The notes under the pieces were generated by a model, which saw only the letters and a program-made list of their open reading frames with translations, was not told where the DNA came from and ran no database searches. The position numbers and the translations under genes are program-made. A stretch of DNA of 64,000 nt from Syncephalis fuscata. Its lineage: Eukaryota; Zoopagomycota; Zoopagomycetes; Zoopagales; Piptocephalidaceae. Every line of letters starts with the position of its first letter. The stretch's first letter is position 1. Below, in pieces: positions 14,038-56,481 of the stretch. The DNA lies in assembly GCA_025786725.1 (NCBI GenBank), contig JAHLTZ010000043.1:62001-126000 (forward strand), in the 5' to 3' direction.

Positions 14038-14898
14038 CTACCAAATATGGTAAATAACGCAACTTACACCACAATTAGGCTGGTGAAATAGTAACAATAC
14101 CATTAGTGATGTTAGTAGCAATAGCTGCGTAATGAGTCCCGACGTGTAAAATAGATGAATGGCGCTGGAGGATTGGTTGAACTGTGTTAATCCATTAGTT
14201 GTTACAGGGAGATCACAACGCTTGGCCGCTTGGTACAACGTCGCAAGTGACGTATTTACCTCCTTATTAACGGATACAAATGGAGTGGACGGTGGCTTCC
14301 ACTGTAGTATAGTGGCAATGGTGGCTTTTGTGCAATAATCACAAGTAAAGTCGCCAAGTTCTGCCATGTCTTTTGGCAAGCCAATGATAGCGTTGTCATG
14401 TAAGACACAGTAGTTGCTGCTGCTATTATTACTGCTGTTGCCGCTATTGTCGTCGCGTAGACATATAGTCTGTCGATCAAGTCCAAAAGTATACCAGAGC
14501 TCATATGTGTCGACTACCATTTCATCGCCTGACTGCAGCTCGGTAGCACATCCTTTTCCTATTATTTCAAGTGCCAAGTTTGCCTGTTTTGGTGTACAAT
14601 AGTTGCTTGGCATTTTACCCGCAGTTGTGTTGCAAATATGCGGTAGCATATCGGAAAACGACATAGGTTCGCGAGTAAATACACCACAGTTTGGAAGCGA
14701 TTGAGAATCCAACGCTTTACGACAGTCGTTGCTCAAGCTACCTTCCGACATAAGCGTTTCCAATTTGCCATGTGGCTCTTTGACAAATGAATCGGTGGAG
14801 TCGGCTGCAAAACAATAATGCCATTGTCCGGCAACACCTATCAATAATAGCCACAATTTAAACACTTTAGTAACATCAGTAAACATTGTTTTTGTCAA
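14038..14898 (-). CDS. Cys-rich secreted GPI-type protein, family A copy 1 (286 aa)
   Basis: First of five paralogs in this window. It has an N-terminal signal/anchor ending near FAADSTDS, then a conserved cysteine framework: NDCRKAL, a CG pair, HICNTT, YCTPKQANLALEII, CATEL, then YELWYTF with a downstream TICL, YCVLH and CDYC, then LQWKPPS and a final RCDLPV. It has several N-glycosylation sequons and a hydrophobic C-terminal segment followed by an unusual 15-residue polar tail with two cysteines. The tail differs from the other copies, so this one could be a transmembrane rather than a GPI protein. The molecular function is unknown. It is likely a cell-surface or secreted structural or effector protein. 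Confidence 0.8.
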   Translation of the reverse strand: MTKTMFTDVTKVFKLWLLLIGVAGQWHYCFAADSTDSFVKEPHGKLETLMSEGSLSNDCRKALDSQSLPNCGVFTREPMSFSDMLPHICNTTAGKMPSNYCTPKQANLALEIIGKGCATELQSGDEMVVDTYELWYTFGLDRQTICLRDDNSGNSSNNSSSNYCVLHDNAIIGLPKDMAELGDFTCDYCTKATIATILQWKPPSTPFVSVNKEVNTSLATLYQAAKRCDLPVTTNGLTQFNQSSSAIHLFYTSGLITQLLLLTSLMVLLLFHQPNCGVSCVIYHIW

Positions 14899-15214
14899 TA
14901 TTCTTATAGCACTGGAATGTGAACAAGTGGCTGCGATTTGTTAGTCAATGTGTACTAGCGTAAAATAGATGTATGAATGATGGTAATATGTAGTATAGTT
15001 ATGCAGTAAAGGGGATAGTAATTGGAAAAAGATTTAATAATGAGACAAATGGTCAAGCATGTCTATTTAATTCTTTTTAGGATCGGCATAAATGTCTGAC
15101 AATACTTTATTATAAATAGAACATATGGCAGCAACAGGTTTTGATAGTGTAGAAAAAGGGGATAAATGTTAGAGTAATACTTGGTAGAATTATCAATATT
15201 TTATTATGGTGTCA
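14899..15214. other. Intergenic, upstream of family A copy 1
   Basis: About 316 bp separating two co-oriented paralogs. No ORF or repeat was recognised. Confidence 0.5.
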
Positions 15215-15976
15215 TTAAAAATGGAACAACAACAGGCCTATGACTGCGATAATACCTGCTGATGTTATTAGTGGTCGGGTGGATGTGGCAGCATTGACAG
15301 CGATTTTGCACTCTTTGGCAGATTGCTTGAAAGAATCTATCTTTGACGTGTATTTCTCACCGGCCAATGTTGCCGAACGGGGTGGCTTCTGCTTCAGTGC
15401 GTTCTCCAACATAACACGGCTGCAATCGCTACATTGCCCGTTTTGATCGTTCGTAGGTTGCGTGTTATTGCTAGTGGCAGCTTCCATGCAGTAACTGCCA
15501 TTGGGCAATTTTGTGCAAAAAGTATTGGCGTCTAGCGAGTACATCAGCCAGTCGGCGTACACGCTCTGAACGTCACCCTGTGCTGCTTTGAGTTCCTCTT
15601 GACACTCGGACTCCATCGTATCAAGTGCTTTATTGATTTGCGTCATTGAGCAAAAATGACCGCTGGCACCGTCAATAGGTGCGGCACATGCCATAGAGAT
15701 TGATTTGCCAGGCGGTACAATTGTTTCAATGCTTGCGCAGGGCGGTGCCACATCAGATCCTAAAAGTGCTTTACGGCATTTGTCCGACGCTTTAGAAAAG
15801 GAACTAGCAGTATCTTTACTGTTAGTGTTTACGTTATTGTTATTGCTGCTGCTAGGAGCTGGTCCTGCTGCTACTGCTGCTGACGTTGAAGGTGTGGCAG
15901 CCAAAACTGTCTGCATCACATTTACGCCTACGAAGACAGATAGTAGCAGCAGCAAGGCATTAGTAAGACGTGTCAT
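15215..15976 (-). CDS. Cys-rich secreted GPI-type protein, family A copy 2 (253 aa)
   Basis: Cleanest member of the family. A signal peptide (residues 1-27) is followed by a low-complexity Asn/Ser/Ala linker (about 28-60) and the conserved core DKCRKAL, APPCASI, MACAAPIDGASGHFC, TQINKALDTMESECQEEL, YADWLMYSL, TFC, SYCMEA, CSDC, LKQKPPRS and ECKIAV. A hydrophobic tail (ITSAGIIAVIGLLLFHF) preceded by small residues predicts GPI anchoring. It has no introns. It lies in tandem with copies 1, 3 and 4, all on the minus strand. I know of no assigned function. It is probably a surface glycoprotein. Confidence 0.82.
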   Translation of the reverse strand: MTRLTNALLLLLSVFVGVNVMQTVLAATPSTSAAVAAGPAPSSSNNNNVNTNSKDTASSFSKASDKCRKALLGSDVAPPCASIETIVPPGKSISMACAAPIDGASGHFCSMTQINKALDTMESECQEELKAAQGDVQSVYADWLMYSLDANTFCTKLPNGSYCMEAATSNNTQPTNDQNGQCSDCSRVMLENALKQKPPRSATLAGEKYTSKIDSFKQSAKECKIAVNAATSTRPLITSAGIIAVIGLLLFHF

Positions 15977-16563
15977 TGTATATTATAAATAGTAAAGTCG
16001 TTCGTAGTAAATTGCAAATAATGGCGAAATAATAGAAAAGGTTGAAAATTTCATGATGGAGGGGCAAGTTTCATAACCAGACCGTGCACCATGTTCACGT
16101 GCTACAGTTAAAATAAAAGGCCTCTTTCGTCTCAATCATTTTGTGCACGAAGACAAATAGAAAATTTAGTTTCTCTAAAAAGACTAAATACTTAGCTTTT
16201 CAGGAAAAGAACATTTGATCATAGAAAAGTGTAAGAGTTGTAATCGATCATACGGAAGAAAGGAAGGGAAGTTGATGATTGGTCAACAGGTTAATTACTA
16301 TTACCGCATTTGGTAATAGTAATTTATTTGTTTTTACACTAAAAAGTCGTATTTACACATATTTTATCGTATTTCAAGTGATATTGTCTGTTTACACAAA
16401 TAGATATATAGTTAATTAGATTGTATTACTAATAGAAAAGATCTAAAGATCTAAAGTCTACATTATCGCCCATTCATATATGTCTTTAATTATTGCTGTA
16501 TTTTATAGTATCATTTAAAGTTATTACATTAATAAAATAATAGCAGTGTTATTTATTATAGGT
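15977..16563. other. Intergenic between family A copies 2 and 3
   Basis: 587 bp with no credible gene. A short direct repeat of ATCTAAAG lies near 16440-16456. Confidence 0.45.
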
Positions 16564-17283
16564 TTAAACGTTAAACATTAATGCAGCAACAGTTGCAATA
16601 ACTACAGCACCAAATGACTTGGGTGCTGAGGCCGATGAACTTTTAGTTTTGGATTCAGAGTCAAAAGCTATGGAATTAGAAGATTTTATGTTGCACTGTT
16701 TAGCCGCTCTAAAAGGATCTGCGGTCAGTTTTTTATAGGCTTTTTGTTCGTAATTGGTTGTTAATTGAGGATTCCAATCAATCCAGAGCTGGAGTTCAGC
16801 CTTGTCACAATCGTTGCATTTGTCCGATTGTATTTGTGGGTCTTCCGAGTCTTCAGACCCTGAATTGCAGTAAGATCCTTCGGAGTTTTTAAGGCATTTA
16901 ATTGTGCTTGTTACAGGATACTTCATCCATTTCTTATATCTTGACTTGACTGGTTTTACTGACGATTCCAATTCTTTTTTACAATCTTTCTTTAATGCAT
17001 CTAGTGCTTTGGTGACTTGCTCGGCAGAACAACGGCGGCCAACGGTGTTGTCATCTGGTGTACTGCAAAACTTATTGAGCTCGATGGACTCTTTGTCTTT
17101 TGCATGGTTGTTGCAAGGTGGAGAAACATCTGTGCTATTAAGTGTTTTTTGACATTCAATAGATATGTTCGCAGAAGAACCCGAATCAGTTGACTTTGGC
17201 TGGGCTGTGGCCAAGGCTGCTATAGCCAATAGGAGAATGCCAATGCTAATGAATCGCACCATTATGTGAAGAGTTAATACCAA
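16564..17283 (-). CDS. Cys-rich secreted GPI-type protein, family A copy 3 (239 aa)
   Basis: A signal peptide (ISIGILLLAIAALATAQ) is followed by the family framework: IECQKTL, SPPCNN, KFCSTPDD, RRCSAEQVTKALDALKKDCKKEL, YKKWMKYPV, TIKCL, SYCNSG, KCNDCDKAELQLWIDWNP, QCNIK. The C-terminal hydrophobic segment (FGAVVIATVAALMFNV) fits a GPI signal. It is more Lys/Ser-rich and lacks the APIDGA segment seen in copies 2 and 5. It has no introns. The function is unknown. Confidence 0.8.
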   Translation of the reverse strand: MVLTLHIMVRFISIGILLLAIAALATAQPKSTDSGSSANISIECQKTLNSTDVSPPCNNHAKDKESIELNKFCSTPDDNTVGRRCSAEQVTKALDALKKDCKKELESSVKPVKSRYKKWMKYPVTSTIKCLKNSEGSYCNSGSEDSEDPQIQSDKCNDCDKAELQLWIDWNPQLTTNYEQKAYKKLTADPFRAAKQCNIKSSNSIAFDSESKTKSSSASAPKSFGAVVIATVAALMFNV

Positions 17284-17793
17284 GTAATAAGAGAGTTCAA
17301 AAAGAATAAAGACAAGAAATTTAATCAGGACTGATAGGTTTATATAGAAAAATGGTACTCATCATGTAATAGATATTTAATACTCATTCTATTCTATTTT
17401 AAAATAAAAACCAGATTTGTTGTGCCAATTGGTTACAGTAGATATAGATAGTTTCAGTTTTTTATCTTCAAGGAGAGTTGACAAATGAGTAATTTTACTA
17501 GCTCATGAAAGCTATGAACCCATTGGCTGTACTTGCCATCAAGACATTAGGCCTTAGATTTTGTACACGACGGGTTTCAGCTTCCGTCCAGTTGTGCGAA
17601 AAAAGGGATTACAGATATAATATGGCGCACCATTATAGCAGTTTTAAATAAAGGCATACTGAAGTTAACAACTTTATTATGAGGTGCAAGTGTAAGGTTA
17701 TATTGAAACAAATGACGACAGCAGCTGATTTTGATAGCAATAACATGATGATGTTTATTAATAAAATTTACTAGTTGTTATTACGTGGAATAT
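17284..17793. other. Intergenic between family A copies 3 and 4
   Basis: 510 bp, AT-rich, with no ORF or RNA recognised. Confidence 0.45.
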
Positions 17794-21585: not shown

Positions 21586-22025
21586 TTCATATAACACTGC
21601 TGAAATGTCTAATATTTTTTAATTAATTAACTGCATCTATAGACTACCGTCATCTTAATGCATGTAAAAGTATGTTAATGTTTCTAGATCACCAATCGGC
21701 AACTCGTAGTAATTTGGGTACTTTTCAGCATATTTTTAAATAACTCTACAGAAAAGCTCAGGATAGTTTTGCGCCATAAAGATTAAAGAATTAAGGTTAT
21801 TAGTATAAATCAATTGTTAGTATGCCTACATGTCTAATGCATACAGATTTTTATATGCAAAAACAGACACTAAAATAACTAGAATAACAACTTATAATTC
21901 AAATAAACCATATATTTATTACTACAAGTTTGAACAAGTGTATAGATACACCTAAGTGCAGACCTGTTGTTAATATAATAGAAATATTGATTGAAAGTTG
22001 AGTATCCAAATGCATTGATTATAAT
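21586..22025. other. Gene-free stretch, 3' of the micro-exon gene
   Basis: 440 bp, AT-rich. No ORF was recognised. It probably carries the 3' UTR and terminator of the gene on the minus strand. Confidence 0.4.
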
Positions 22026-23398
22026 CTAATATATGATAAAGTCGAACAGCAGTTTAAATGTCCTTGGTTCTACCGAATGCATACCTAAAGTGTATGTGAC
22101 TAGCAGTTCAATTAGATTACCAACGCTAGTTTTCAAATCTATTAGCATTATTTCAGACCATAGTTACATATAGCGTATTTCATATAATTAGTAAATAGCC
22201 GATAAATATACAGTATAGCTTACCATCTATCCGTACAAGTATTAAGTAAACATAGCAATGATATGTAATTAGTGTACAGTTGATTGATATACAATGTTAC
22301 TTACTGCTTGTTAGTATTATGTAATAACTACACACTATTCATAACATATGGTTAATGTATATTCAATTACCATATACTACAGTTACAGTCTGCTAAAAAT
22401 ATCTTACTAAACATGGGCAGAGCATAATGTGCTATTAGATTATAGTTGCTTTATATACAATGTCACTTACCTTCTATTGATATTAAGTTGTTAGGCACAA
22501 AGAGTGCACAGAATTTGATTAAAATGTAACTTATTAATACATGATCTTACTTGCGAACTATTAATATAGGTTACCAAACACACAAAATACATAGCATGTA
22601 ATTAGTATATATTTAATTAATGTATAATCTCACTCACTAACTATTGATACAAATTATTAAACACATACGGTCTATTTTATATGATTAGTATACACTTGAT
22701 TATTATATAATGAAACCTACATGCTATCAATACAAGTTATTAGGCAGACATGATGCGTATCATCTAATTAGCTTATAGCTACTTAATATACAATGGCACT
22801 TACGATCTATTAAAGTTGATTTAAAATATAAATGTTATTTGGTCAGTTAAACAACTAATTATTTCTAGTTTAATTTACCTCCTAATAATATAAATATGAT
22901 GTATTAATATCATAAGTGTGTATTTTATTCACTGTTATATATTAAACTTATTCTTAGCCAGTGGCGCTAATTTACCCGTTGTGTATTAATAAACAATCGC
23001 TAATTAGCACATCAATGGCTATGTATAATTCAAACCTACCGTCTGTTTGTGTGTTTATTGTGTTTAGCATGTGCGTAAAGTGCACAGTAAGTGCCAGAAC
23101 AATAATCCATAAGTATAACTTACCATCTAACATCATCGTTAGTTAAACATGACACTAGTAAATATATACTATTGCATATTGGTTGTAATTGCAACATACC
23201 ATGAGGGGCCGAGACTGGCATAGCATCCACCATGATCATATCGACCACAAAAGCCGCGACAATAATGCAGATGATGGCAATGGAAATATTTATAATAATG
23301 GTGTTTTTGAAGCAACAATGGAATGAAATGCAAGATGCTTGAAATATAGTGGATAAAAGCGGTGTTTGAGCAGAAAGTAGAATGCAATAATAAAGCAT
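22026..23398 (-). CDS. Secreted micro-exon gene: 11 consecutive 3-nt exons
   Basis: Exon 1 (23200-23398) encodes 66 residues with a long hydrophobic signal/anchor (INISIAIICIIVAAFVV) and ends in phase 1 at a GTATGT donor. Downstream, eleven AG-NNN-GT sites follow. The triplets are at 23124-23126, 23040-23042, 22879-22881, 22804-22806, 22721-22723, 22638-22640, 22555-22557, 22471-22473, 22387-22389, 22301-22303 and 22224-22226. On the coding strand they read atg, acg, gag, atc, cat, tta, ttc, aag, act, taa, atg. In phase 1 the chain has no stop and gives D-D-G-D-P-F-I-Q-D-L-N before a last exon (22026-22138) of 37 codons ending in TAG. Introns are 72-85 nt apart from one of 158 nt, and one uses GCAAGT. 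The tenth triplet could instead be a 2-nt exon, which would end the protein early. No family is recognised. This is sequence-only evidence, with no transcript data. Confidence 0.6.
22139..23199 (-). repeat. Degenerate tandem array of intron + micro-exon units (~83 bp)
   Basis: Successive units share a layout on the minus strand: GTAAGT-like donor, CATTGTATAT-like block, TACTAATTA-like block about 35 nt in, CCTAATAACTTGTATCAATAG-like end, then a triplet, then the next donor. Unit length is about 77-88 nt, except for one double-length unit (22882-23039) that may contain a lost micro-exon near 22970-22985. Sequence between units is strongly diverged while the AG and GT positions are kept. Confidence 0.75.
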
Positions 23399-24356
23399 TG
23401 GCTAGTTGCGCATAATACGTGAGCTATTTAAATCTATTACTGCAACAAAACTACAGTGGCACGTGTTGTGTAGAGTATACCGTGTATTACAATGTAAACC
23501 AGTAAAACGCAACTGGATTGTGATTTGAAGCACATGTACATAAATAGATTCATGGCATGGTGTTATACAAACTAAATCTTTGTTTTGACTTGCTCGGCAT
23601 TTACACAAATATAGTGGCAATACCTTGTATCCAATGCATATTTACTATAGATTTACATATCAATGTACTGTTACACGTTTTAGCAACGATATGCTAAATA
23701 AACACGTTAGTCTTATGGAAGCAATGACGTTAGTATCACTACGCCTTTGTAGCCACCTTTTCTAAAATTTATATGTGCCCACACAAAGTTCACTAATTAT
23801 ATTGCAACATATCTATGCAGTAAAGTATATCTTTTTATAAATGTTTACTGTTTTTTGTAAACCAATGCGATTTCGAGTAATAATAAAAATACTGATTGTT
23901 TTACGAACATACTCGGATTAATACTATTTTTTTGTTACAGTTATAGAAAATGAATCAAATTTGCAAAGACAGCATACACATACAAAGCACTCTACACGCC
24001 ATGCGATTGCTGACATTTCACCTAGTACATCGCCAAAGCTGCCCAAAATTATTTGTTCAATTTTTACTGCAGCATGGTGCACCATAACACTTTCCACAAT
24101 AAAAATGCATTTAGACACTAATGTCAGCAACTTTGAAGTCATCTGACGATGTAAATCAGTCAAATAGTACTTGCTACAGTGTAAAAATACTATATTAAAA
24201 TCACAGAGCTGCCATATTCTAATACGGCTATATTCTCTATAATAATTTTTGCACAGTATATTATTACTACAAGCAATACAAATAAAAGTTAAAAAAACTA
24301 GGCATGTTTTTAAAACCGGTAATAGTCGGAAATTAAATAAATTTATTAAGAAATGA
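23399..24356. other. Gene-free stretch upstream of the micro-exon gene
   Basis: About 960 bp. It contains a 146-codon antisense ORF (23924-24364) that overlaps the stop codon region of the next gene, has no recognisable domain and is probably chance. I see nothing else. Confidence 0.4.
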
Positions 24357-25049
24357 TTAGGCACTGAACAATGCTGCGCTAACTACAACAAAGAGTGCCG
24401 ATCCAAACATAGCAGTGCTAATGGTGGAGTGGCTGGAATCTGAAGACGATGTCGATGATGATGAGGAATCGTCGATAGTAATATTGCACGCTTGGGTCAT
24501 ATTGTTGAGCGATGCTTTTTGCTGCTCATAGAGTTGAGTGGCAAGCGGGGTTGATCGAGAAGGCTTCCACTTAAGGCCCGCTTTAAGGAAAGTAAGTGTA
24601 CAACCTTCACACTGGTCCTTTTCAGTGGCGTTCTTCATTGCTTCGAAGCAGTATGCGCCACTGCTATCCTTTATACAGGCATTGTCTCTGCTCAAAGGAT
24701 AGACGAGCCAGACTTCATAGAGTCCTGGGACTACTGACGTCTTATCATTCATCTCAGTTTTACACGCGGTCTCGAGAGTTTCGAGTGCCTTAGAGATCTG
24801 TGCATCTGTGCAAAAATGACCGACAGCCCCATCAATAGGCGCTTTGCAAACTGCTTCGCTTAAACCGCCCGATGTGCTTTTATAACAATCAGGCGCAACA
24901 TCGGTGCTTTTTATCGCTTGCTTGCAGGTATCTGTTAGGTTGGCCGTACCAGGAGAAAGAATTACTGTGCCACTGGAGTCCGTTGACTGTCCCACAGCCG
25001 CTCCCACAATGGCCAGCAGTGGAATAATTGTCTTTAAAGAAAGAACCAT
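24357..25049 (-). CDS. Cys-rich secreted GPI-type protein, family A copy 5 (230 aa)
   Basis: A signal peptide (IIPLLAIVGAAVGQ) is followed by the family framework: DTCKQAI, APDCYKS, AVCKAPIDGAVGHFC, AQISKALETLETACKTEM, YEVWLVYPL, NACI, AYCFEAM, QCEGC, LKWKPSRS and ACNITI. It ends in a Ser-rich linker and hydrophobic tail (MFGSALFVVVSAALFSA) typical of GPI signals. It is closest to copy 2. It lies 5.8 kb from the tandem block, on the far side of the decayed F-box-like gene and the micro-exon gene. It is intronless. The function is unknown. Confidence 0.82.
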   Translation of the reverse strand: MVLSLKTIIPLLAIVGAAVGQSTDSSGTVILSPGTANLTDTCKQAIKSTDVAPDCYKSTSGGLSEAVCKAPIDGAVGHFCTDAQISKALETLETACKTEMNDKTSVVPGLYEVWLVYPLSRDNACIKDSSGAYCFEAMKNATEKDQCEGCTLTFLKAGLKWKPSRSTPLATQLYEQQKASLNNMTQACNITIDDSSSSSTSSSDSSHSTISTAMFGSALFVVVSAALFSA

Positions 25050-25757
25050 AGTAACTAGATAAGTATAAAGTAAATAAGCGATTTAAAAATGCTAAAGCTA
25101 GTGGACAATCAATAGTAGAAAGAAAAATAGTAGGAATAGGAATGGTGGAGCAACAACCGTACAGAAAAGTGTCGTTTTATAGGAATGATTATAAACGGCG
25201 CGACATTGAACGATACTATTAAAGGTACTCCAACCACGAGTTATTAGCGTGTCTAGTGTAGATTTCCTGAGAATATTCCAAATAAGTACAAAAGCCACAT
25301 TTGGGCAAATCATTGCTTGTTAAAGCTATCACAATTTACCATTTATGTAGTTCATTGGCGGATTTATTACATGGCATTATAATAATTTATTGGAGTTATA
25401 TATTAAAAATACCGATAGATGTGAGAGCTTTTATTGTCAGTATGGCATACAAGATCGCCTTTTTATAGAATTACCAATATACACCGACTTCTAAAACTAT
25501 GGCACATGGCAGAGTTCAGAAAGATGGTCGCAATAAGCAAATACAAAAAAGGATATATCGTTGTACAAACGACTCTACTATTTGAATCGAATACGTAGTT
25601 TAGTTAAAGCTTATCATCGAAAATATTCATATTAAACTATAGTAATTCTCACGCTTTATTGCATTGATAGACGATATACTTGTGAATTTAATTATTTCTT
25701 AGTTTATTTCAAGGTATAGATGCGAAATTGTATATGTAACATAATTAAAAAGCGATT
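25050..25757. other. Gene-free stretch between family A copy 5 and MED13
   Basis: About 700 bp, with no credible ORF. It is the promoter side of the GPI gene and the 3' side of MED13. Confidence 0.45.
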
Positions 25758-43636: not shown

Positions 43637-45616
43637 TTATGCGGTACAATTGGGTGGTAGGCTGTTATCTGACTCTTTACGGCCAGTTTTGGCAACAACC
43701 TTATACCCAAGACCTCGCTTGGCGAATCCACGCCAGATTTCACAAGCATGTTTACCACCTGTTAATTGCTGCTCAGCCTGAATGATAGCATCTCGGGCTT
43801 GAAGGAATGTTGGGTTACATGGCTGTAGTTTCAAAGCATCAACAACAATCTGAAGGAAAAGTGTATTGCCTTTTGTAAGGTCAACAGAGTATTTGTTTTC
43901 TTGGAATCCAAGCTTATTAACAAAGTTCCAATAAACTTCATATAACATTGTGGCCCAAATCTCACCAGCACTGTGCGGTTCATAAATCCACCAAAAATCG
44001 TTCAAGTAATTGTAGTTCAGAGGATTTGTAGATTGGTTAGTCGAGTAGGCAAAGTGACGAATATTTTTTCCAATAACATATCGACCCATTTCAACATTTT
44101 TGGTAGAGTTATCGGTTGGTTTCATTTCGAGCCAGGAAGCATAGAAATCGCTCCAGCCTTCGTTCATGCCTCGGGATTCAAGGTTTAACAAACATTGGGA
44201 ATTGGCCGAACCACCAGTTAAGCGACCAGATATACCATGTCCATATTCGTGTGAAATAATATCGTTTTCGAGAGAGCCATCGCGGCCTGGTGCTATATTG
44301 TCAAAGCCAAACATTGCCATTGTTGGTCGTTCACCATCAACCGAATTCGTAAAGAATGCATTGCCACGATAGCCTGGAGAATCATAGCCTGCTAATACGT
44401 GGGCAGCTACAGCGTCACTGCCCTTACCACCTTTGTTGCCATTGTCTTCTTGGAAATTGCCAGCAGCTTCATCGAAGCCGTATTGATAGAAAATATCGTG
44501 CATGAAATTGTTAACGTAAAACAGATTGGTAACGGCTGCATCGACATTGTGTTTGAGGTCTTTTTTAGCATCGTATGGGAAGTTGAAATCTAAATTCTTT
44601 CCACCATCGGGACGATGATTGTTTTTCCAGTTATCTTCACTATCATCAACGCCATCATTGTCTGTATCTGTGAAGTTATAGTTGACCTGAGCAAATACAT
44701 TGTTGCCAATTGTAGTGGTAAACTTCTTGTCTCCCTGTGTGTGCCAGCCATTTGGCGATGCATTCCTATCGGCTGGATTCGTGACGGTTTGAAGTGGTGT
44801 ATCGATAGGATTATTGTTGCCAATTTTAACAACATCATAGCTAGCAAAAGTCATCAAATCACTCAATGCAAGTATTTTGGTACCATCAGCCGATACATGG
44901 ACTAAGAACTCGTTAAGTGGCATTTTGACTAGAAATTTCCAAGCTGGTGCTACTTCATTGGCACTTGTTTGAATGTAGGATTGTGACACTTTTACAGCAG
45001 ACTTGGTAAAACCAACATTCTTAAGTAGATATGACTGACCACCATTCGTAGGTTTAGGCTGTGGTACAGCCTGGACTTTGCTAGCATCGAATGACTGCTT
45101 GATATGCGTGGCAAATGTACGCAAAGCATCTGCAGGAGAAACAAATCCGGCAGTCTGGCCATCCCATGTTTTGAATGGCTCGGCCATTAATTTGTTTGTG
45201 GTGCTTTGGCCAGCCGCATTGCTTTTAAAAAAGCTGTCGTCATAGGCAATAATCTTGTTTGCTTTACTGACATGAACACCCACAACGCCGTTGGAGACGT
45301 TAATGCCTTTGATGGTTTGTTGAAGGTAGACATGGGTGGTACCGCTGATCTTGGATTTGTGCGAGGTGGTCACAATAAAGTCGCCATCTTTGACATGAAG
45401 CTGAGAACGGGCAAACTCAAGCGCAACCTCTTGTGCATTGTGGGGTGTGAATGATGCTGGTGGCCTGTAGTTGTTTAGATTGGATGACAAAGTACGAACT
45501 GCAGAATTAACGTTAACGCTAGGAATAATAGATTCGACTTCAATTCGCTGATTGGCACATGAGACGGCACCGACAAATGCCAGAATTAAAGAAGCAGTAC
45601 GTAGGTCAATATGCAT
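43637..45616 (-). CDS. Secreted fungalysin M36 metalloprotease, copy 1 (659 aa)
   Basis: Extracellular zinc endopeptidase made as a preproenzyme. A signal peptide (residues 1-20) is followed by the FTP/PepSY-type propeptide (to about residue 265, including HVYLQQTIKGINVSNGVVG) and the catalytic domain. The zinc site is HEYGH at 456-460 in IISHEYGHGISGRLTGG, with the third ligand in NEGWSDFYASW. The conserved C-terminus is CNPTFLQARDAII...CEIWRGFAKRGLG. The length fits the family (about 600-650). A loop at about residues 320-340 reads TDTDNDGVDDSEDNW, which looks like a calcium-binding Asp-rich loop. It is intronless, unlike the housekeeping genes. Its two paralogs lie within 9 kb. Confidence 0.96.
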   Translation of the reverse strand: MHIDLRTASLILAFVGAVSCANQRIEVESIIPSVNVNSAVRTLSSNLNNYRPPASFTPHNAQEVALEFARSQLHVKDGDFIVTTSHKSKISGTTHVYLQQTIKGINVSNGVVGVHVSKANKIIAYDDSFFKSNAAGQSTTNKLMAEPFKTWDGQTAGFVSPADALRTFATHIKQSFDASKVQAVPQPKPTNGGQSYLLKNVGFTKSAVKVSQSYIQTSANEVAPAWKFLVKMPLNEFLVHVSADGTKILALSDLMTFASYDVVKIGNNNPIDTPLQTVTNPADRNASPNGWHTQGDKKFTTTIGNNVFAQVNYNFTDTDNDGVDDSEDNWKNNHRPDGGKNLDFNFPYDAKKDLKHNVDAAVTNLFYVNNFMHDIFYQYGFDEAAGNFQEDNGNKGGKGSDAVAAHVLAGYDSPGYRGNAFFTNSVDGERPTMAMFGFDNIAPGRDGSLENDIISHEYGHGISGRLTGGSANSQCLLNLESRGMNEGWSDFYASWLEMKPTDNSTKNVEMGRYVIGKNIRHFAYSTNQSTNPLNYNYLNDFWWIYEPHSAGEIWATMLYEVYWNFVNKLGFQENKYSVDLTKGNTLFLQIVVDALKLQPCNPTFLQARDAIIQAEQQLTGGKHACEIWRGFAKRGLGYKVVAKTGRKESDNSLPPNCTA

Positions 45617-46796
45617 GTTAATAATAGGAAAGCAAGAAGATGTGATACGTAAATTGAATAATCAAATAATTAGTTAGTAGAAAGATTCTTTAAGAACAAT
45701 TGTTAAGCGTAAATAAATTGCGGTGATTGATTTGAATAGTTGTTAGGTGTTGTGAGTGGACTAGTGAGTTGTAATAAATATTAACAAAACACTAGAATAG
45801 CGGCAATTTTTATAATAAATACCTTAGCACTTTATTCTCAAAATATTACAAGTTTTAATAACATACAAAATCAGATTGCACAAATAGGCCATTAGTTAGT
45901 TGAATATGCTGTTTGTTGTCGTCATTCATTGAATATTGCATTTTCTGCATTATGTTTCAATTCTTGGCAAACACGTCCAGAGTTGATAAACCATTATTAC
46001 TATTTTTGATCAGGTTTAATATTAATAAGGCCTCGTGTCACATGATTTTACAATACGTGATTGCTGATGTATACTCAACGCCTATGCGCAGACAACAGGG
46101 TAAAAATGAGCACATAATTAGAAGCATTCAAGTTTAAAAGCACTGTTCTAAATTACCATAAATTGATGGTCCATATTCATAAAGGCCTGTATAAATCCAG
46201 TATTTGTAACTTTCTAAAATTAACAGCGATCAATTTTAAATATCTACACGCCTTTTGGTATACGGCTCTTTTTTAATCAACTTTTCCACTAGTTATGCCT
46301 CAAATAAACTAAAAAATAATTTCAAGTTCAAATTGATTTTAATGCATTTCAAAATATTATTTTGTAATATTTTGATTTTTCAGTGTATATGTTAGTTTTT
46401 ATTAATAAGCTGCATCGCTTTAATATTTTTGAATGGTTTACAGGTGAAATGAGCTGTTTTCTAAAAGGCCTGGAGCGTTACGCCAATAAATCAGTGAATT
46501 GATTTCCATAAATTACACTAAGAAGTTGGCATTACCTGTTTTAGGCCTTGTTTTACTAATATATACCATTATCTTGCTTTTCAAGTTTGAAGATTGTGAG
46601 TTTACTGGTTATACTATATTGCTATTACGGGTGTCGTAAAACACAAAAGACGACTACACACGTAAAATATGCTGTCTAAGCTATTTTGCACTAATAATAG
46701 AATCTAAATCAAAAACATGCTTTATTTTAATTTGTAAAAACTATCAAGCATTTTTATGCCACTTATAAGCTGCAGCAATGTTGTATTTAACTAATC
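45617..46796. other. Gene-free stretch upstream of M36 copy 1
   Basis: About 1.2 kb, AT-rich, with a TATA-like TTTATAATAAAT near 45809-45820. A 74-codon ORF (45913-46137, +) has no features I can support. Confidence 0.45.
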
Positions 46797-47937: not shown

Positions 47938-48954
47938 TGCAATATTTTATAACTTGTCTAAAAACAAAAACTTGGTTTGAAAAAATGTTTGTAAAAGAGC
48001 GTTGAAATAATATAGGTCAAATGACAACGTTATCCGAAAGGGAAAAATAGAGAATAAAGAATAGTTACTAAAGTTTGCATGTTGTTTTTATAGCAAACGT
48101 GGCCGTTATAATCGTTAGAGAATTATATTAATGTAATAAACATGGCAACTATATGATTATATTTAGCATGAGATTCGGATATAATTAGAGTTTCAGGCAA
48201 TACAATAAGCCAATTGGCTTGAAATGGTATACTGGCATCACGAAAATTTTGAATTCTGAATTTAAAATACGGAGTTGTTTCATAGTTATGTGGCTATTGC
48301 TATATCTATAATGTAAATCTTATAGCCACTTGAATATATAGATAATTATAAGTATAATAAAAATAGTATTGTAAATAATATTTATATGCTTTATTGCTAT
48401 TTTATCCATCAAATAACTTATATCATTGTCAAAGTTTGATAACCGCTCTATATAACAACAGTTTTCTTAGCAACTATAACTTATAATAAACTTATAGACA
48501 ATTATTTATCTGTGTGTGTTTAAATGTATTGTTTGGTTGAGCAATATGCTTTTTAAGCTAATTAAAATTTTATTAATTTTGTAATATGCCAACTATAACA
48601 ATATTGGTTAAAAACAATTAATAAGTTGTGTAAAGCATAAAAATAATTAATACGTGGTAGTAACAAATTACATGTGCAGCATATTGCCGGCATGTCCACC
48701 AAGATGTTTATATTCTCATTGTATTACAAATTTAAGTTTATATCTTATAAATGTAATACCTGTTATAAAAGCCGTGCTTGTTTAAGTATTTTTGTAAAGA
48801 GCTATAGTCACACGCCATTAATCCTACGCCCAATAACTTACTAATTATGCAATTCATCTACGATATTCTACTTACGCTTAATACTATCATATAATTATTT
48901 TTATTTTAGTTTATCTAATCTACGTATCACGACTCTTCGCTTTCTACCGTCAAC
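47938..48954. other. Promoter and intergenic region upstream of M36 copy 2
   Basis: About 1 kb. The last ~200 bp carry the TATA element listed separately and a block shared with the inverted copy. Nothing else was recognised. Confidence 0.5.
48764..48770 (+). promoter_or_regulatory. TATA box of M36 copy 2
   Basis: TATAAAA embedded in TTATAAAAGCCGTGCTTG, 185 bp upstream of the start codon. The same block occurs in inverted orientation upstream of M36 copy 3. Confidence 0.7.
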
Positions 48955-50919
48955 ATGCATATCAACCTACTTATTGCCTCGTTGATCCTGGCATCTGTTG
49001 GTGCCGTTTCATGTGACAACCAACGAGTTGAGGTTGACTCTATTATTCCCAAGATTAATGTCGCTTCTGCAGTTCGCGATTTGTCGCCTGATCTAAGCAC
49101 ATACAAGCCACCAGCGTCATTCGCACCTCAAAGTGCACAAGAAGCTGCACTTGAATTTATTCGTTCCCAGCTCCACATCAAGAATGGCGAATTTATTTTG
49201 ACCAACTCGCACAAGTCCGAGACCAGCGGTACCACTCATGTCTATCTTCAGCAAACCATCAAAGACATTAACGTTTCGAATGGTGTTGTGGGTATTCACG
49301 TCGACAAAGCAAACAAGATCATTGCCTATGACGACAGTTTCTTCAAGACCAACAAAGCTAATCAGTTTGTAGCTAAACCACTCAAAACATGGGATGGCCA
49401 GACTACCGGATTTGTTTCTCCCATTGATGCATTGAGTAAACTTGCCACACACATCAAACAGCAATTCGATGCCAGCAAGGTCCAAACTGTACCACAAGCT
49501 AAATCTGCAGGTAGTGGCCAGTCATATCTGCTCGAGAATGTTGACTTTGCCACGTCTCCAGTAAAAGTGTCACAATCATACATCCAAACAAGTGCCAATG
49601 AAGTGGAACCCGCTTGGGAGTTTATGATCAAGATGCCGCTTAACAATTTCTTAGTCCATGTATCGGCAGATGGCACCAAAATACTTGCATTGAAGGATTT
49701 AATGTCTTTTGCCAGTTACAATGTTGTTAAAATTGACAACAACAATCCTATCGACACGCCACGCCAAATTGTCACGGATCCAGCCGACAAGATTGCATCA
49801 CCAAATGGCTGGCACACACAGGGAAGCAAAAGATTTACCACTACAGTTGGTAACAATGTATTTGCTCAGGCCAACTATAATATTAAAAACGCAAAAGGTG
49901 ATCGCATTGATGATAATGAAGATAGCTGGAAAAACAGTACTCGTCCAGATGGTGGAAAAAATCTAAAGTTTGATTTTCCGTACGATCCTAAAAAAGCGCC
50001 AAAAGACAATGCCAACGCAGCTGTTACCAACCTGTTCTACGTTGCTAACAGTATACATGATATTTTCTACAAGTATGGTTTCAATGAAGCTGCTGGCAAC
50101 TTCCAAGAAGACAACGGCAACAAAGGTGGCAAGGGCGGTGACGCTGTAGCTGCTCAAGCGTTGCAAGGCTACGATTCTCCAGGCTTCCGTGGCAATGCAT
50201 TTTTTACAGAATCGGTTGATGGTGAACGACCAACAATGGCAATGTTTGGCTTTGACGAGATAAAACCAGGCCGCGACGGGGATTTCGAAAATGATATTAT
50301 TTCGCATGAATATGGCCATGGCATATCTGGTCGACTAACCGGTGGCAGTGGGAAATCCGACTGTTTGTCAGATACCGAAGCCAGAGGCATGAGCGAAGGT
50401 TGGAGTGACTTCTTTGCTTATTGGCTTGAGATGAAAGCATTTGATAAATCTACTAAAAATGTTGAAATGGGAAAATACGTCGCTGGCCAAAATATTCGTA
50501 GTCATCCATATTCAACTAACATGGCTACAAATCCACGGTCATTTTATGATTTAAGCAAAGACGAATGGAGTCTTGGTGTATATGATTTTGGTGAAGTTTG
50601 GGCCACAATGCTATACGAAGTTTACTGGAATCTTGCTAATAAGCTTGGATTTCAAGCAAACATATACTCCCCCGACATTACAAAAGGCAACACTCTTTTA
50701 CTTCAAATTGTCATTGATGGCCTAAAATTACAACCATGTAATCCAACTTTTGTTCAAGCTCGAAATGCCATCATTCAAGCCGAAAAGCAATTAACCGGTG
50801 GTAAGCATGCCTGCGAAATCTGGCGTGGATTTGCCAAACGAGGTCTTGGTTATAATGCTAGCACTAAGAAGGGTATTAGATATCCGGATATTAATTTACC
50901 AAAAAACTGTAAGCCATAG
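48955..50919 (+). CDS. Secreted fungalysin M36 metalloprotease, copy 2 (654 aa)
   Basis: Same architecture as copy 1: signal peptide (residues 1-20), FTP/PepSY propeptide, catalytic M36 domain with HEYGH at 451-455 and Glu481 in SEGWSDFF. It is intronless. The propeptide and much of the catalytic domain are almost identical to copy 3 in inverted orientation. Differences are concentrated in three patches: about residues 308-340 (IKNAKGDRIDDNEDSWKN), about 466-560, and the last 15 residues. The calcium-like loop of copy 1 is degenerate here. It is probably secreted to digest prey, host or environmental protein. Confidence 0.96.
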   Translation: MHINLLIASLILASVGAVSCDNQRVEVDSIIPKINVASAVRDLSPDLSTYKPPASFAPQSAQEAALEFIRSQLHIKNGEFILTNSHKSETSGTTHVYLQQTIKDINVSNGVVGIHVDKANKIIAYDDSFFKTNKANQFVAKPLKTWDGQTTGFVSPIDALSKLATHIKQQFDASKVQTVPQAKSAGSGQSYLLENVDFATSPVKVSQSYIQTSANEVEPAWEFMIKMPLNNFLVHVSADGTKILALKDLMSFASYNVVKIDNNNPIDTPRQIVTDPADKIASPNGWHTQGSKRFTTTVGNNVFAQANYNIKNAKGDRIDDNEDSWKNSTRPDGGKNLKFDFPYDPKKAPKDNANAAVTNLFYVANSIHDIFYKYGFNEAAGNFQEDNGNKGGKGGDAVAAQALQGYDSPGFRGNAFFTESVDGERPTMAMFGFDEIKPGRDGDFENDIISHEYGHGISGRLTGGSGKSDCLSDTEARGMSEGWSDFFAYWLEMKAFDKSTKNVEMGKYVAGQNIRSHPYSTNMATNPRSFYDLSKDEWSLGVYDFGEVWATMLYEVYWNLANKLGFQANIYSPDITKGNTLLLQIVIDGLKLQPCNPTFVQARNAIIQAEKQLTGGKHACEIWRGFAKRGLGYNASTKKGIRYPDINLPKNCKP

Positions 50920-52228: not shown

Positions 52229-54193
52229 CTACGGCTTACAAGTGGGTGGTAAGCTGGTGTTTGCTACTCTAATACTACCCCTACTATTAGCACCATGACC
52301 AAGACCTCGTTTGGCAAATCCACGCCAGATTTCGCAGGCGTGCTTACCACCGGTTAATTGCTTTTCGGCTTGAATGATGGCATCTCGGGCTTGAACAAAA
52401 GTTGGATTACATGGTTGTAATTTTAGGCCATCAATGACAATTTGAAGTAAAAGAGTGTTGCCTTTTGTAATGTCGGGGGAGTATATGTTTGTTTGAAATC
52501 CAAGCTTATTAACAAGATTCCAGTAAACTTCGTATAGCATTGTGGCCCAAACTTCGCCAAAATCATACGCATCAAACTTTTGTCCAACTTTAGTTAAATC
52601 ATTAAATGATTTTGGATTTACAGTCGTGCTAGTTGAGTATGGACGGCTACGAATATTTTGACCAGCAACGTGTTTGCCCATTTCAACATTTTTAGTAGAT
52701 TTATCAGATGCTTTCATCTCAAGCCAATAAGCAAAGAAGTCACTCCAACCTTCGCCCATGCCTTTAGCTTCGGCGTCTGATAAGCAGCCGGACTTTCCAC
52801 TGCCACCGGTTAGTCGGCCAGATATGCCATGGCCATATTCATGCGAAATAATATCATTTTCGAAATCCCCGTCGCGGCCTGGTTTTATCTCGTCAAAGCC
52901 AAACATTGCCATTGTTGGTCGTTCACCATCAACCGATTCTGTAAAAAATGCATTGCCACGGAAGCCTGGAGAATCGTAGCCTTGCAACGCTTGAGCAGCT
53001 ACAGCGTCACCGCCCTTGCCACCTTTGTTGCCGTTGTCTTCTTGGAAGTTGCCAGCAGCTTCATTGAAACCATACTTGTAGAAAATATCATGTATACTGT
53101 TAGCAACGTAGAACAGGTTGGTAACAGCTGCGTTGGCATTATCTTTTGGTGCTTTTTTAGGATCGTATGGAAAGTTAAAATTTAGACTACTTCCGCCATC
53201 TGGACGGGGGTTGTTTTTCCAATTAGCTTCATTATCATCATAGTGCTCTTTTCTTGCGCTTCTAACATTGTAGTTGGCCTGAGCAAATACATTGTTACCA
53301 ACTGTAGTGGTAAATCTTTTGCTTCCCTGTGTGTGCCAGCCATTTGGTGATGCAATCTTGTCGGCTGGATCCGTGACAATTTGGCGTGGTGTGTCGATAG
53401 GATTGTTGTTGCCAATTTTAACAACATTGTAACTGGCAAAAGACATTAAATCCTTCAATGCAAGTATTTTGGTGCCATCTGCCGATACATGGACTAAGAA
53501 ATTGTTAAGCGGCATCTTGATCATAAACTCCCAAGCGGGTTCCACTTCATTGGCACTTGTTTGGATGTATGATTGTGACACTTTTACTGGAGACGTGGCA
53601 AAGTCAACATTCTCGAGCAGATATGACTGGCCACTACCTGCAGATTTAGCTTGTGGTACAGTTTGGACCTTGCTGGCATCGAATTGCTGTTTGATGTGTG
53701 TGGCAAGTTTACTCAATGCATCAATGGGAGAAACAAATCCGGTAGTCTGGCCATCCCATGTTTTGAGTGGTTTAGCTACAAACTGATTAGCTTTGTTGGT
53801 CTTGAAGAAACTGTCGTCATAGGCAATGATCTTGTTTGCTTTGTCGACGTGAATACCCACAACACCATTCGAAACGTTAATGTCTTTGATGGTTTGCTGA
53901 AGATAGACATGAGTGGTACCGCTGGTCTCGGACTTGTGCGAGTTGGTCAAAATAAATTCGCCATTCTTGATGTGGAGCTGGGAACGAATAAATTCAAGTG
54001 CAGCTTCTTGTGCACTTTGAGGTGCGAATGACGCTGGTGGCTTGTATGTGCTTAGATCAGGCGACAAATCGCGAACTGCAGAAGCGACGTTAATCTTGGG
54101 AATAATAGAGTCAACCTCAACTCGTTGGTTGTCACATGAAACGGCACCAACAGATGCCAGGATCAACGAGGCAATAAGTAGGTTGATATGCAT
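52229..54193 (-). CDS. Secreted fungalysin M36 metalloprotease, copy 3 (654 aa)
   Basis: Inverted near-duplicate of copy 2. The first ~300 codons differ at only a handful of nucleotides, including the signal peptide and propeptide. The catalytic site HEYGHGISGRLTGG and the Glu ligand in GEGWSDFF are intact. The variable patches are VRSARKEHYDDNEANWKNN, the region from about residue 466 (SGCLSDAEAKGMGEG) through the RSRPYSTSTTVNPKS segment to KVGQKFDAYDFGEV, and the tail GHGANSRGSIRVANTSLPP. It is intronless and intact. The mosaic identity suggests gene conversion with copy 2 alongside local diversification. Confidence 0.96.
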   Translation of the reverse strand: MHINLLIASLILASVGAVSCDNQRVEVDSIIPKINVASAVRDLSPDLSTYKPPASFAPQSAQEAALEFIRSQLHIKNGEFILTNSHKSETSGTTHVYLQQTIKDINVSNGVVGIHVDKANKIIAYDDSFFKTNKANQFVAKPLKTWDGQTTGFVSPIDALSKLATHIKQQFDASKVQTVPQAKSAGSGQSYLLENVDFATSPVKVSQSYIQTSANEVEPAWEFMIKMPLNNFLVHVSADGTKILALKDLMSFASYNVVKIGNNNPIDTPRQIVTDPADKIASPNGWHTQGSKRFTTTVGNNVFAQANYNVRSARKEHYDDNEANWKNNPRPDGGSSLNFNFPYDPKKAPKDNANAAVTNLFYVANSIHDIFYKYGFNEAAGNFQEDNGNKGGKGGDAVAAQALQGYDSPGFRGNAFFTESVDGERPTMAMFGFDEIKPGRDGDFENDIISHEYGHGISGRLTGGSGKSGCLSDAEAKGMGEGWSDFFAYWLEMKASDKSTKNVEMGKHVAGQNIRSRPYSTSTTVNPKSFNDLTKVGQKFDAYDFGEVWATMLYEVYWNLVNKLGFQTNIYSPDITKGNTLLLQIVIDGLKLQPCNPTFVQARDAIIQAEKQLTGGKHACEIWRGFAKRGLGHGANSRGSIRVANTSLPPTCKP

Positions 54194-56481
54194 GTTGACG
54201 GTAGAAAGCGAAGAGTCGTGATACGTAGATTGATCAACTAAAATAAAGACTGCTTAAAACCAACCAGTGGATTTCAAAAACAGCGTAATCGTAAGTTGGG
54301 TTGTTGTAAGTGGATCACGTAGTTGTTAAGATGTTGAACGTAAAATTTATGGTGTATAGTTATAATGCTTTACAAAAATACTTCAACAAGCACGGCTTTT
54401 ATAATGAACGCCGTATCTGTGCAATGAAATCTGAGCTTGTAAAACAGTAGAACATAGTCACATACTACCGATGGGTTGACACTGGATATCCAGTATAACC
54501 AATTGTTGGCTTGTAACAAGTACCCCTATACTATACACAATTTACTAGTGTTAGCTAGGTCATACCTCAGAATATGTGTATTAAATTAGTAAGGCCTTGA
54601 ATTAGACGGTTTCACAGCAAGTGCTTTATACGGTACAATAGAATATTTGATATTTTTCATTCCTTGTTTAGCATCTGAGACATACAAATGAACAAATAAA
54701 AATAGAAATTCAGTTATGAATACCATGGTATTTAATTTTTTAAAAACTTGGGCCCAATTGAATGTTTCGGCATTTCAAAATTCCTTATTGTGAGTACTTT
54801 GAGATTTTTTATTGCAAGCACTCTATGGTTCTTTATCACAAGCACTTTGAGATTTTTTTTATCGCAAGCACCCTAAAGTTTTTTATCACAATTGCCACCA
54901 GTAAATATTCAATTATACTAGTAATATAGGCCTGAAATGAAACTTGACGTAGAAGCCTATAGCAGATTTAATGACAAACTGCTTGAAATTTCAAAACACT
55001 TTTTAGCAAACGATTGTCTTTAACAATCAGCTACTCCATATTTGAATAAGCGACAAACTACCGGACAGTTTTGAATTCAAACCTGGTTTATCTATACCAA
55101 GACTTACACAACTAAATTAGTAATGATTTTTGAGTTGTGGGCACAATGACATTATTATTTACAGTTGCATATTGCATAGTTAAAATGCATATTAAAGTTG
55201 ATATTTCATGTGCACTAAAAGTACAAATGGCACTTTTTAAAATTGATACATGTATTTTAACTAAAACAATTCTGACAATTAAGCTAGCAAATTAGAATAA
55301 GAATAAAACAACGGTTTACGTTACTATTTGATGTACCAAGATACATATAAGTATATGTTATAATAAATTCACAGATGAGTGTCGATCAGTGTATATGTAC
55401 ATAAACCAGTCGATCACTCAGAGTGCTTGTTAAACTAATTAGATTTGCTGAATTGTAACACGAAAAGTACAACACTACAAAGAATGTTTACAATTTTACT
55501 AGCTAACTAATCTAATGGTTGTAGCACTGTGACCATCACTATGGGCTTGACTTGAAGTAGGCCGTGTTTTACTTAATACTATGCCGATCTGCTTTTCTAT
55601 TGATATGGGCAATGCAATAATCAAGTATAATTTTTCATTCAAACCCATTTTAATATCTGCTATAAAATACCACTAGTAATTATACTGATGCTGGATATTC
55701 AGTGGTATACTATAACTCAAAGTAGCTTCTTTAGTATTATGTTTCATATTTTTACTAACATAAAGTAAGATAATTTGATTTTTGTGCTATAATCTTTAAG
55801 TTATTATGCATTTCCGTCATGAGCTATCGTACTGCTGCAGCTGCTGTGACATTATATATGCAAGGATAGTCTATGATTATTCGAATCACTGCAATATACA
55901 GCAGCAACCATTACAGGCATTCTTTATTTACATATGCGTACATTATATCCGATAACCAAGCAGCTGAATGCCACACACACAAATGATTTATTTTGCTGAA
56001 TTTACTTGTAATAGTACAAGCTTGTATTTTAGTATCAATTGTTGTTATAATACATTACCGTTAGATATTAAATGGTAAGTGCAGCCATATCTAATACATT
56101 CAGTTTATTTAATGCATCACACCAATCAGAACATCATTGCAATGCAATAATATATTGAAGCTATACTATGTCTAGTTATATTATGTATGCTATGTGTTTT
56201 CATATGAATACTACGCGTGTAACTATGAAAATATGTATTATAAATTTATTATTATGTTCATAAATTTATAGCAACTATGCTATATTTCTTACAACTTGGA
56301 CGAATGCAATTGACATTGTTTTGCATAGTTACTGTGAGAAAAGTTAGACAGTTTATTACTATTGCCTTTTGGAATTGGCAGATTGTGTGCGCGTAGATAT
56401 ACTAAGAATTGCTATGTTTGCACCAGACTGACTATTTCTGAATAAAAATGTGTTAGCCATACCATGCATTAAAGCGTTTTC
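54194..56481. other. Gene-free AT-rich stretch
   Basis: About 2.3 kb. The proximal 210 bp hold the copied M36 promoter (TATA at 54397-54403 on the minus strand). A short minisatellite is listed separately. No credible ORF was found. Confidence 0.5.
54788..54892. repeat. Minisatellite, ~25-bp unit, about four copies
   Basis: Units of the form GCAAGCACTTTGAGATTTTTTATC recur four times with length variation in the T-run. Confidence 0.75.

Follow-up and report, generated by a model that had tools for sequence, protein, structure and literature searches.

A probable family of secreted-peptide genes with tandem one-codon exons in Syncephalis fuscata

Syncephalis fuscata, which parasitises other fungi, very probably carries a large family of secreted-peptide genes built from units of about 82 nt, each an intron plus a 3-nt exon, whose triplets are joined in order. 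The array on the minus strand of the window (the whole stretch of 64,000 nt that was analysed) would be a decayed member of this family. At the level of the DNA, we demonstrate the anatomy of the unit, the reading frame, the avoidance of stop codons at neighbour junctions and the homology of one array to uninterrupted paralogs; transcription, splicing, secretion, Kex2-type processing and a role in mycoparasitism are presumed.

In the proposed gene, a 94-nt leader exon would encode the signal sequence, usually end in a dibasic RR and stop in phase 1. Tandem units would follow, and a terminal exon would give the last residue and the stop codon. The spliceosome would take out each short intron by intron definition, and the triplets would be joined in phase 1, so that one micro-exon yields one residue of the mature peptide. 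The introns are likely to be removed from 5' to 3', since removal of an intron joins the triplet to the upstream exon and turns the AG-NNN-GT clash into an ordinary donor. A difficulty for this explanation is that runs of constitutive 3-nt exons make heavy demands on the splicing machinery. If it is true, the spliceosome joins dozens of 3-nt exons serially without frame-breaking errors, far beyond what isolated micro-exons ask of it. This would bear on the recognition of very small exons, on the origin of introns (arrays of copied introns with codons between) and on how parasites enlarge their secreted peptide repertoires.

The array of the window and the anatomy of the family

Eleven putative AG-NNN-G(T/C) splice sites had been claimed on the minus strand, and all are present at their place, with the A of the AG at 23128, 23044, 22883, 22808, 22725, 22642, 22559, 22475, 22391, 22305, and 22228. 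The donor of site 22559 is of the GC type (GCAAGT). Judged by the profile matches and the genome-wide two-unit pattern described below, the eleven sites are far beyond chance. The spacing of ~83 bp given for them fits the measured distances (84, 161, 75, 83, 83, 83, 84, 84, 86, and 77 nt) except for the 161 nt between sites 2 and 3; this interval contains the 15-nt exon of the family (22966-22952), its GT donor gone. The gap of three bases, said to hold throughout, is found at most sites, and site 22305 is ambiguous, as a donor-preferring parser gives it a 2-nt gap. The claimed signal-peptide exon (23293-23200) is indeed the family leader exon, although an ATG is missing where the family starts, and the dibasic motif is lost. 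The open terminal exon supposedly entered at 22139 is not the coding exon of the family; its counterpart in the relatives is 3' untranslated sequence, and the terminal acceptor of the family (AG before NN-TAA) is absent. The array is best called a decayed family member, with intact-looking members elsewhere, because it has lost its start codon, its dibasic motif, the terminal acceptor and the GT behind the 15-nt exon, and one unit has a 2-nt gap. The sequence cttaaatagcc, the counterpart of the element at 23421..23436, is conserved in the alignment 5' of the leader exons at other loci.

Table 1. Features of the window array, with the basis on which each was named
Feature	Position	Strand	Basis or remark
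Promoter element, TTTAAATAG-type, TATA-like	23421..23436	-	named from position and letters only
Leader exon, 94 nt, phase 1, decayed	23200..23293	-	family form MKLSIAVV...VDAKPxxxRR
Micro-exon 1 (ATG)	23124..23126	-	site check and exon chaining
Micro-exon 2 (ACG)	23040..23042	-	site check and exon chaining
15-nt exon, no donor GT in window copy	22952..22966	-	family pattern; elsewhere APLAK or close variants plus first base of R
Micro-exon 3 (GAG), completes KR dibasic site in other loci	22879..22881	-	site check and chaining
Micro-exon 4 (ATC)	22804..22806	-	site check and unit profile
Micro-exon 5 (CAT)	22721..22723	-	site check and unit profile
Micro-exon 6 (TTA)	22638..22640	-	site check and unit profile
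Micro-exon 7 (TTC), donor GCAAGT	22555..22557	-	site check and unit profile
Micro-exon 8 (AAG)	22471..22473	-	site check and unit profile
Micro-exon 9 (ACT), weak donor	22387..22389	-	site check; weak profile match, unplaced in unit-placing run
Micro-exon 10, ambiguous (good donor gives 2-nt gap; 3 nt needs poor donor)	22301..22303	-	site check and profile
Micro-exon 11 (ATG)	22224..22226	-	site check and unit profile
Terminal exon and 3' UTR remnant, acceptor AG missing	22026..22153	-	family comparison
AATAAA motif, poly(A)-signal-like, conserved at family 3' end	21915..21920	-	letters and alignment

Elsewhere in the window lie three similar fungalysin-like (M36) ORFs (43637-45661, 48919-50919, and 52229-54253). 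The last of these matches Peptidase_M36 and is, by eye, near-identical to 48919-50919 in the opposite orientation. Small cysteine-containing ORFs give weak DUF7729 matches, at 14038-14940 just above the curated cut-off and at 15215-15982 and 24357-25082 below it; 16564-17358 looks like them by eye.

Paralogs of the repeat unit, for which the initial annotation had pointed to the whole assembly, are abundant. A DNA search of the S. fuscata assembly with 22026-23398 gave 180 matches, and a strict two-unit pattern (perfect GTAAGT plus CTAA) matched 1,457 times genome-wide against 0 for a reversed-pattern control. Forty loci, one of them the window's own, were chosen among the matches listed and fetched; as they were chosen from matches to the window array, the sample leans to window-like arrays. 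A unit profile grown from eight window units and applied to these 40 loci, including the window's own, gave 761-804 matches, and 800 units were placed. With 331 strict pairs falling within the 800 units, scaling the 1,457 pairs by 800/331 gives a rough figure of ~3,500 units genome-wide, duplicated contigs counted. Up to 49 units stand in one locus (L020, the longest), and 48 of these have a 3-nt exon.

The gap from AG to donor is 3 nt in 770/800 units (96%), so that the bulk of the coding sequence would lie in short exons whose length is a multiple of three, a trait of micro-exon genes. The other gaps are 6 nt (four units), 15 nt (four), 2 nt (three), 1 nt (two), 9 nt (two), 7 nt (one), and 4 nt (one), with none found in 13. 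As the gap parser favours 3 nt, the distance from each exact GTAAGT to the nearest upstream AG was also measured; it is 3 nt in 626/687 cases, 0-2 nt in 46, another length in 11, and 4 have no AG within reach. Successive 3-nt units are spaced by 70-95 nt in 688/705 cases, with a median of 82. The profile columns are conserved for the AG (.97/.89), the GTAAGT (.88-.93) and the TAA of a branch-like motif (.93-.98), and the triplet columns hold 0.02, 0.21, and 0.00 bits. The TAA core lies ~33 nt 3' of the donor and is presumably the branch-point motif.

The leader exon, with its signal sequence, was located in 39/40 loci, where it precedes the units, and 30/40 have it with an ATG, a length of 94 nt and phase 1. 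It encodes an MKLSIAVVCT-type signal sequence and a VDAKP-like stretch, mostly with RR before the donor. A hydrophobic segment at the N-terminus of the first exon was judged by eye across the leader loci. The signal sequence speaks for the secreted product proposed earlier, as a prediction. The leader junction CGTCGTGGTATGTTG, allowing at most one mismatch, has 155 matches genome-wide and 2 in the control. A protein search with P0121 scored at least 150 places; among the matches listed, some run through the mature part without a stop and many reach residues 31-38 only, as expected where the leader exon gives way to an intron.

A strict pattern finds the 15-nt exon in 9/40 loci, eight with a GT donor, and alignment reveals diverged forms in others. 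The exon encodes APLAK or a close variant and, joined with the next triplet GAG, gives K/R. An AG followed by NN-TAA lies 67-71 nt 3' of the donor of the last unit in 25/40 loci. The terminal-exon sequence of the arrays is the string that follows TAA in uninterrupted genes; in L045, the terminal acceptor is followed by CA-TAA-TCGATGGTTTCAAGACATCAGCATTGG, which from TAA on equals the string after the last codon of the uninterrupted L053. A coding terminal exon after CACTTTAG was rejected, as the identical sequence trails the stop codon in uninterrupted genes.

That the introns are relatives of one another, as first proposed, is borne out: in the unit profile and the intron comparison, near-identical introns with spliceosomal-type signals occur in many copies within and between genes. 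This likeness, as in intron-copying elements, and the varying unit numbers are what non-coding tandem repeats or introner-like elements merely resembling splice units would show. We regard that explanation as hardly credible, since the leader exon stands before the units in 39 of the 40 loci, the profile finds no unit outside the array within the 64-kb window at E <= 0.05, and the stop avoidance, codon usage and L045 homology given below also speak against it.

Reading of the triplets

The triplets appear to be joined consecutively and read as codons in phase 1, a reading supported by stop codons, codon usage and homology, with the splicing itself presumed. In this phase, which is set by the leader, a codon consists of the third base of one triplet and the first two bases of the next. 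For the stop test, eight near-duplicate loci were dropped and the triplets were shuffled within arrays, treating them as independent though units were duplicated. Joining neighbours in phase 1 gives 3/576 stops against 16.5 expected, and 0/400 shuffles were as low; the three stops (L011, L012, and L036) all lie at the last junction of their array. With one unit skipped, there are 21/536 stops against 15.4 expected, and with two skipped, 18/496 against 14.4. At join distances of 4-8 units, observed and expected stops are 9/13.2, 9/12.2, 15/11.3, 6/9.9, and 5/9.0. Avoidance confined to neighbours suggests that selection acts on the product in which all units are included in order. The counts at skipped junctions speak to selection and not to whether skipping occurs.

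These counts bear on the initial proposal of combinatorial isoforms, in which any unit may be left out and the locus would give many peptides that differ by residues. Since the units have donors and acceptors in common and almost without exception a 3-nt exon, the chemistry would allow skipping and the frame would be kept; joins over 4, 5, 7, and 8 units also fall slightly short of the expected number of stops. However, skips of one or two units give stops at or above the random rate, neighbour joining is stop-free before the last junction, and the cysteine framework of L045 needs the units in order. The data do not support the isoform proposal, which we consider improbable.

Codon usage was scored against 4,126 codons from 11 ORFs of the window, for chains of at least eight. 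The mean log2 codon probability is -5.92 in phase 1, -6.13 in phase 0, and -6.74 in phase 2, and the best phase in 31 chains is phase 1 for 24, phase 0 for six, and phase 2 for one. The exon chains used for the array peptides include some skipped or doubtful units. No TAA, TAG, or TGA triplet occurs among the 770 3-nt exons, as might be expected where the middle base is seldom A or G. Phase 0, in which one triplet is one codon, was rejected, as codon usage, leader phase and cysteine homology favour phase 1. The 3-nt exons in phase 1 claimed at first, and relatives with far more units than the window array, are supported by unit profile, leader phase, codon usage, stops and the L045 homology given below.

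An array could also be one long intron with ratchet (recursive) sites, from which the triplets are lost as the leader joins the terminal exon. From general knowledge, AG-NNN-GT resembles a recursive splice point, and every unit carries intron signals. The product would then be the leader plus one residue, and the ordered stop avoidance, the codon usage and the homology of the L045 triplets to uninterrupted paralogs all argue against it, so we give this reading very little credence.

Uninterrupted paralogs and the evolution of the arrays

Fifteen paralogs were fetched since they looked uninterrupted in protein searches of the genome. Each reads open from the shared leader into a mature part rich in cysteine, mostly of the form C-x2-C-x3-C...C...C...C. 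The frame closes with TAA shortly past the final cysteine in 14/15 and continues in L052. A cysteine profile was built from the 15 mature parts, with L052 cut. The concatenated exons of L045 in phase 1 score 28.8 bits against this profile; the best shuffle scores 12.5, and the L045 score was reached by 0/2,000 order shuffles and 0/2,000 residue shuffles. The other phases of L045 give no match (phase 0) and -0.3 (phase 2). L046 scores 12.9, with 1/2,000 order and 1/2,000 residue shuffles as good, and L047, the leader of which is damaged and which was read minus one unit, scores -6.8, with 1,945/2,000 order and 970/2,000 residue shuffles as good. These three arrays were picked for paired cysteines in their phase-1 reading; when all 35 chained array peptides were compared with the profile, two (L045 and L046) reached E < 0.001. 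The homology of L045 rests on the profile, as a genome search with its mature part alone gave nothing at E <= 1. Taken together, the array peptides are made up above all of P, G, A, R, S, and T; for two arrays of this kind, L028 and L020, genome searches with the mature peptide gave no uninterrupted relative at E <= 1.

The structure model of the uninterrupted L054 has helices at 34-49 and 54-64, with a mean pLDDT of 64, and is too uncertain to serve for comparing folds. Helical-hairpin cysteine peptides of the alpha-hairpinin type have two helices held by CxxxC pairs. Another uninterrupted gene, P0122 (G000:C1:523550-523882), has RRAVEPLAKRAPN after the leader, a start similar to the residue order that some arrays spell by micro-exons and the 15-nt exon.

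Fourteen NCBI models have the family leader. Four were placed on the genome, three on uninterrupted genes and one, P0124 (BDF19DRAFT_422765, at the L017 locus), on an array; this model joins the first micro-exon to the leader but runs on into the intron behind it. BDF19DRAFT_422765 is likely a misannotated array gene. The NCBI protein models were rejected as transcript evidence, as the only array-placed one ignores the micro-exons. Since this model misreads its array, similar genes may go unseen in other genomes, a hint of a blind spot in annotation.

The claim that the triplets vary freely is true of units with near-identical introns, where triplets differ, and fails for nine aligned locus pairs (eight near-identical ones plus L028/L030, some pairs sharing a locus), where no triplet base differs. 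Among 349 pairs of units with 94-97% identical introns, the whole triplet is shared in 28%; agreement is 43% at codon positions 1 and 2 and 68% at position 3. Position 3, the middle base of the triplet, tends to be T and matches in 45% of the distant unit pairs too, so part of this pattern is base composition. The nine locus pairs have 0/336 changes in triplet bases (~2 expected at the intron rate) and 47/7,140 in introns, so the codons seem no more mutable than usual. Hypermutation of the triplets, suggested by the unit pairs, is not supported by the locus pairs, which weakly point the opposite way. In the diverged pairs L009/L010, L026/L027, L045/L047, and L045/L046, where the register is uncertain, triplets differ by 0.38-0.80 and introns by 0.06-0.11; in four others, also of uncertain register, the values are 0.09-0.17 and 0.04-0.12. 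L031/L030 has only three comparable triplet bases and L018/L020 none. The introns seem to have been copied or homogenised around kept codons.

The promoter of the uninterrupted gene L064+L049+L065 is 82, 81, and 79% identical to those of L045, L046, and L042 over 319, 313, and 334 bp, and its 3' UTR is 89 and 92% identical to those of L046 and L045. With promoter and 3' UTR in common, genes with and without arrays are variants of a single type. Retroposition of an uninterrupted copy to a new site is not favoured for the one tested, as its promoter is shared with arrays. The economical course, we infer, is loss of the introns in place by way of cDNA.

A different origin, which we consider unlikely though by no means negligible, would start from an uninterrupted gene and insert a copy of an intron at every codon, instead of tandem duplication of intron plus codon with later intron loss through cDNA. 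The 94-97% identity of introns around different codons, and the promoter and 3' UTR that one uninterrupted paralog has in common with arrays, are compatible with such insertion. However, exons of varied lengths would be expected from random insertion, and 96% are exactly one codon. Several arrays repeat units together with their codons (CTC CAG in L039, CAA ACC in L046), and a single cDNA event would suffice for the step from array to uninterrupted gene, whereas the opposite step would take dozens of insertions.

Our tentative picture, for which we claim a little short of an even chance, is a hypervariable secreted arsenal written one codon per exon. The ~3,500 constitutive 3-nt exons behind ~150 leader junctions would be spliced faithfully in order; duplication of units would add residues, intron copying would refresh the splice signals without touching the codons, and occasional conversion in place by spliced cDNA would give the uninterrupted genes.

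In 8/40 loci (L015, L017, L019, L023, L038, L042, L045, and L047, of which L017 and L019 are near-identical), a related insert of 335-420 nt with a tRNA-like end, which we take to be SINE-like, lies inside one array intron each. The donor and acceptor are left, a point in favour of the splicing explanation, and the unit spacing there is 417-503 nt. Two large inverted duplications carrying an array were seen, each within one contig, one at G000:C2:519593-522681 (-) and C2:537175-540348 (+), ~14 kb apart, and one at G000:C1:575193-575775 (-) and C1:609977-610559 (+), ~34 kb apart.

Comparison with known systems

The initial annotation had called runs of 3-nt exons undescribed in fungi, and the passages of open-licence literature searched hold no report of them, nor any description of runs of one-codon exons, fungi included. 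Profile searches of 5.8 billion proteins listed S. fuscata only (14 at E<=10; 11 at E<=1), with word-based candidates that may miss distant kin, and gave no sequence relation to the proteins of schistosome micro-exon genes. For the latter, a passage of PMC10526429 gives exons of 3-81 bp, introns of up to 5 kbp and 35 genes. The S. fuscata family resembles them in its presumably secreted product and in a coding region made of short exons. Unlike in schistosomes, its exons are almost all one codon, its introns (~79 nt) are mutually homologous, its arrays vary in unit number, and the genome has some 150 leader junctions.

The 3-nt and 1-nt micro-exons of plants and animals are isolated between normal exons. 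Splicing of such tiny exons is described, in the passages concerned, for a 1-nt exon of Arabidopsis (PMC4674806), a 3-bp exon of Drosophila homothorax (PMC7392893) and plant microexons (PMC8831610). Like those of S. fuscata, they are too small for exon definition; S. fuscata differs in having runs of dozens. Recursive (ratchet) sites are adjacent acceptors and donors used stepwise, leaving nothing behind, whereas in our reading of S. fuscata 3 nt stay and would encode a residue.

Introner-like elements scatter among unrelated genes. In fungi, they are introns multiplied in many copies, according to a passage of PMC4457414. The introns of S. fuscata, by contrast, follow one another in tandem, with one for each codon, behind a single family of leaders. 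The aphid bicycle genes have longer exons. A passage of PMC9168663 presents these genes as a fast-evolving family of putative effectors recognised through gene structure; of the two families, the one-codon regularity belongs to that of S. fuscata alone.
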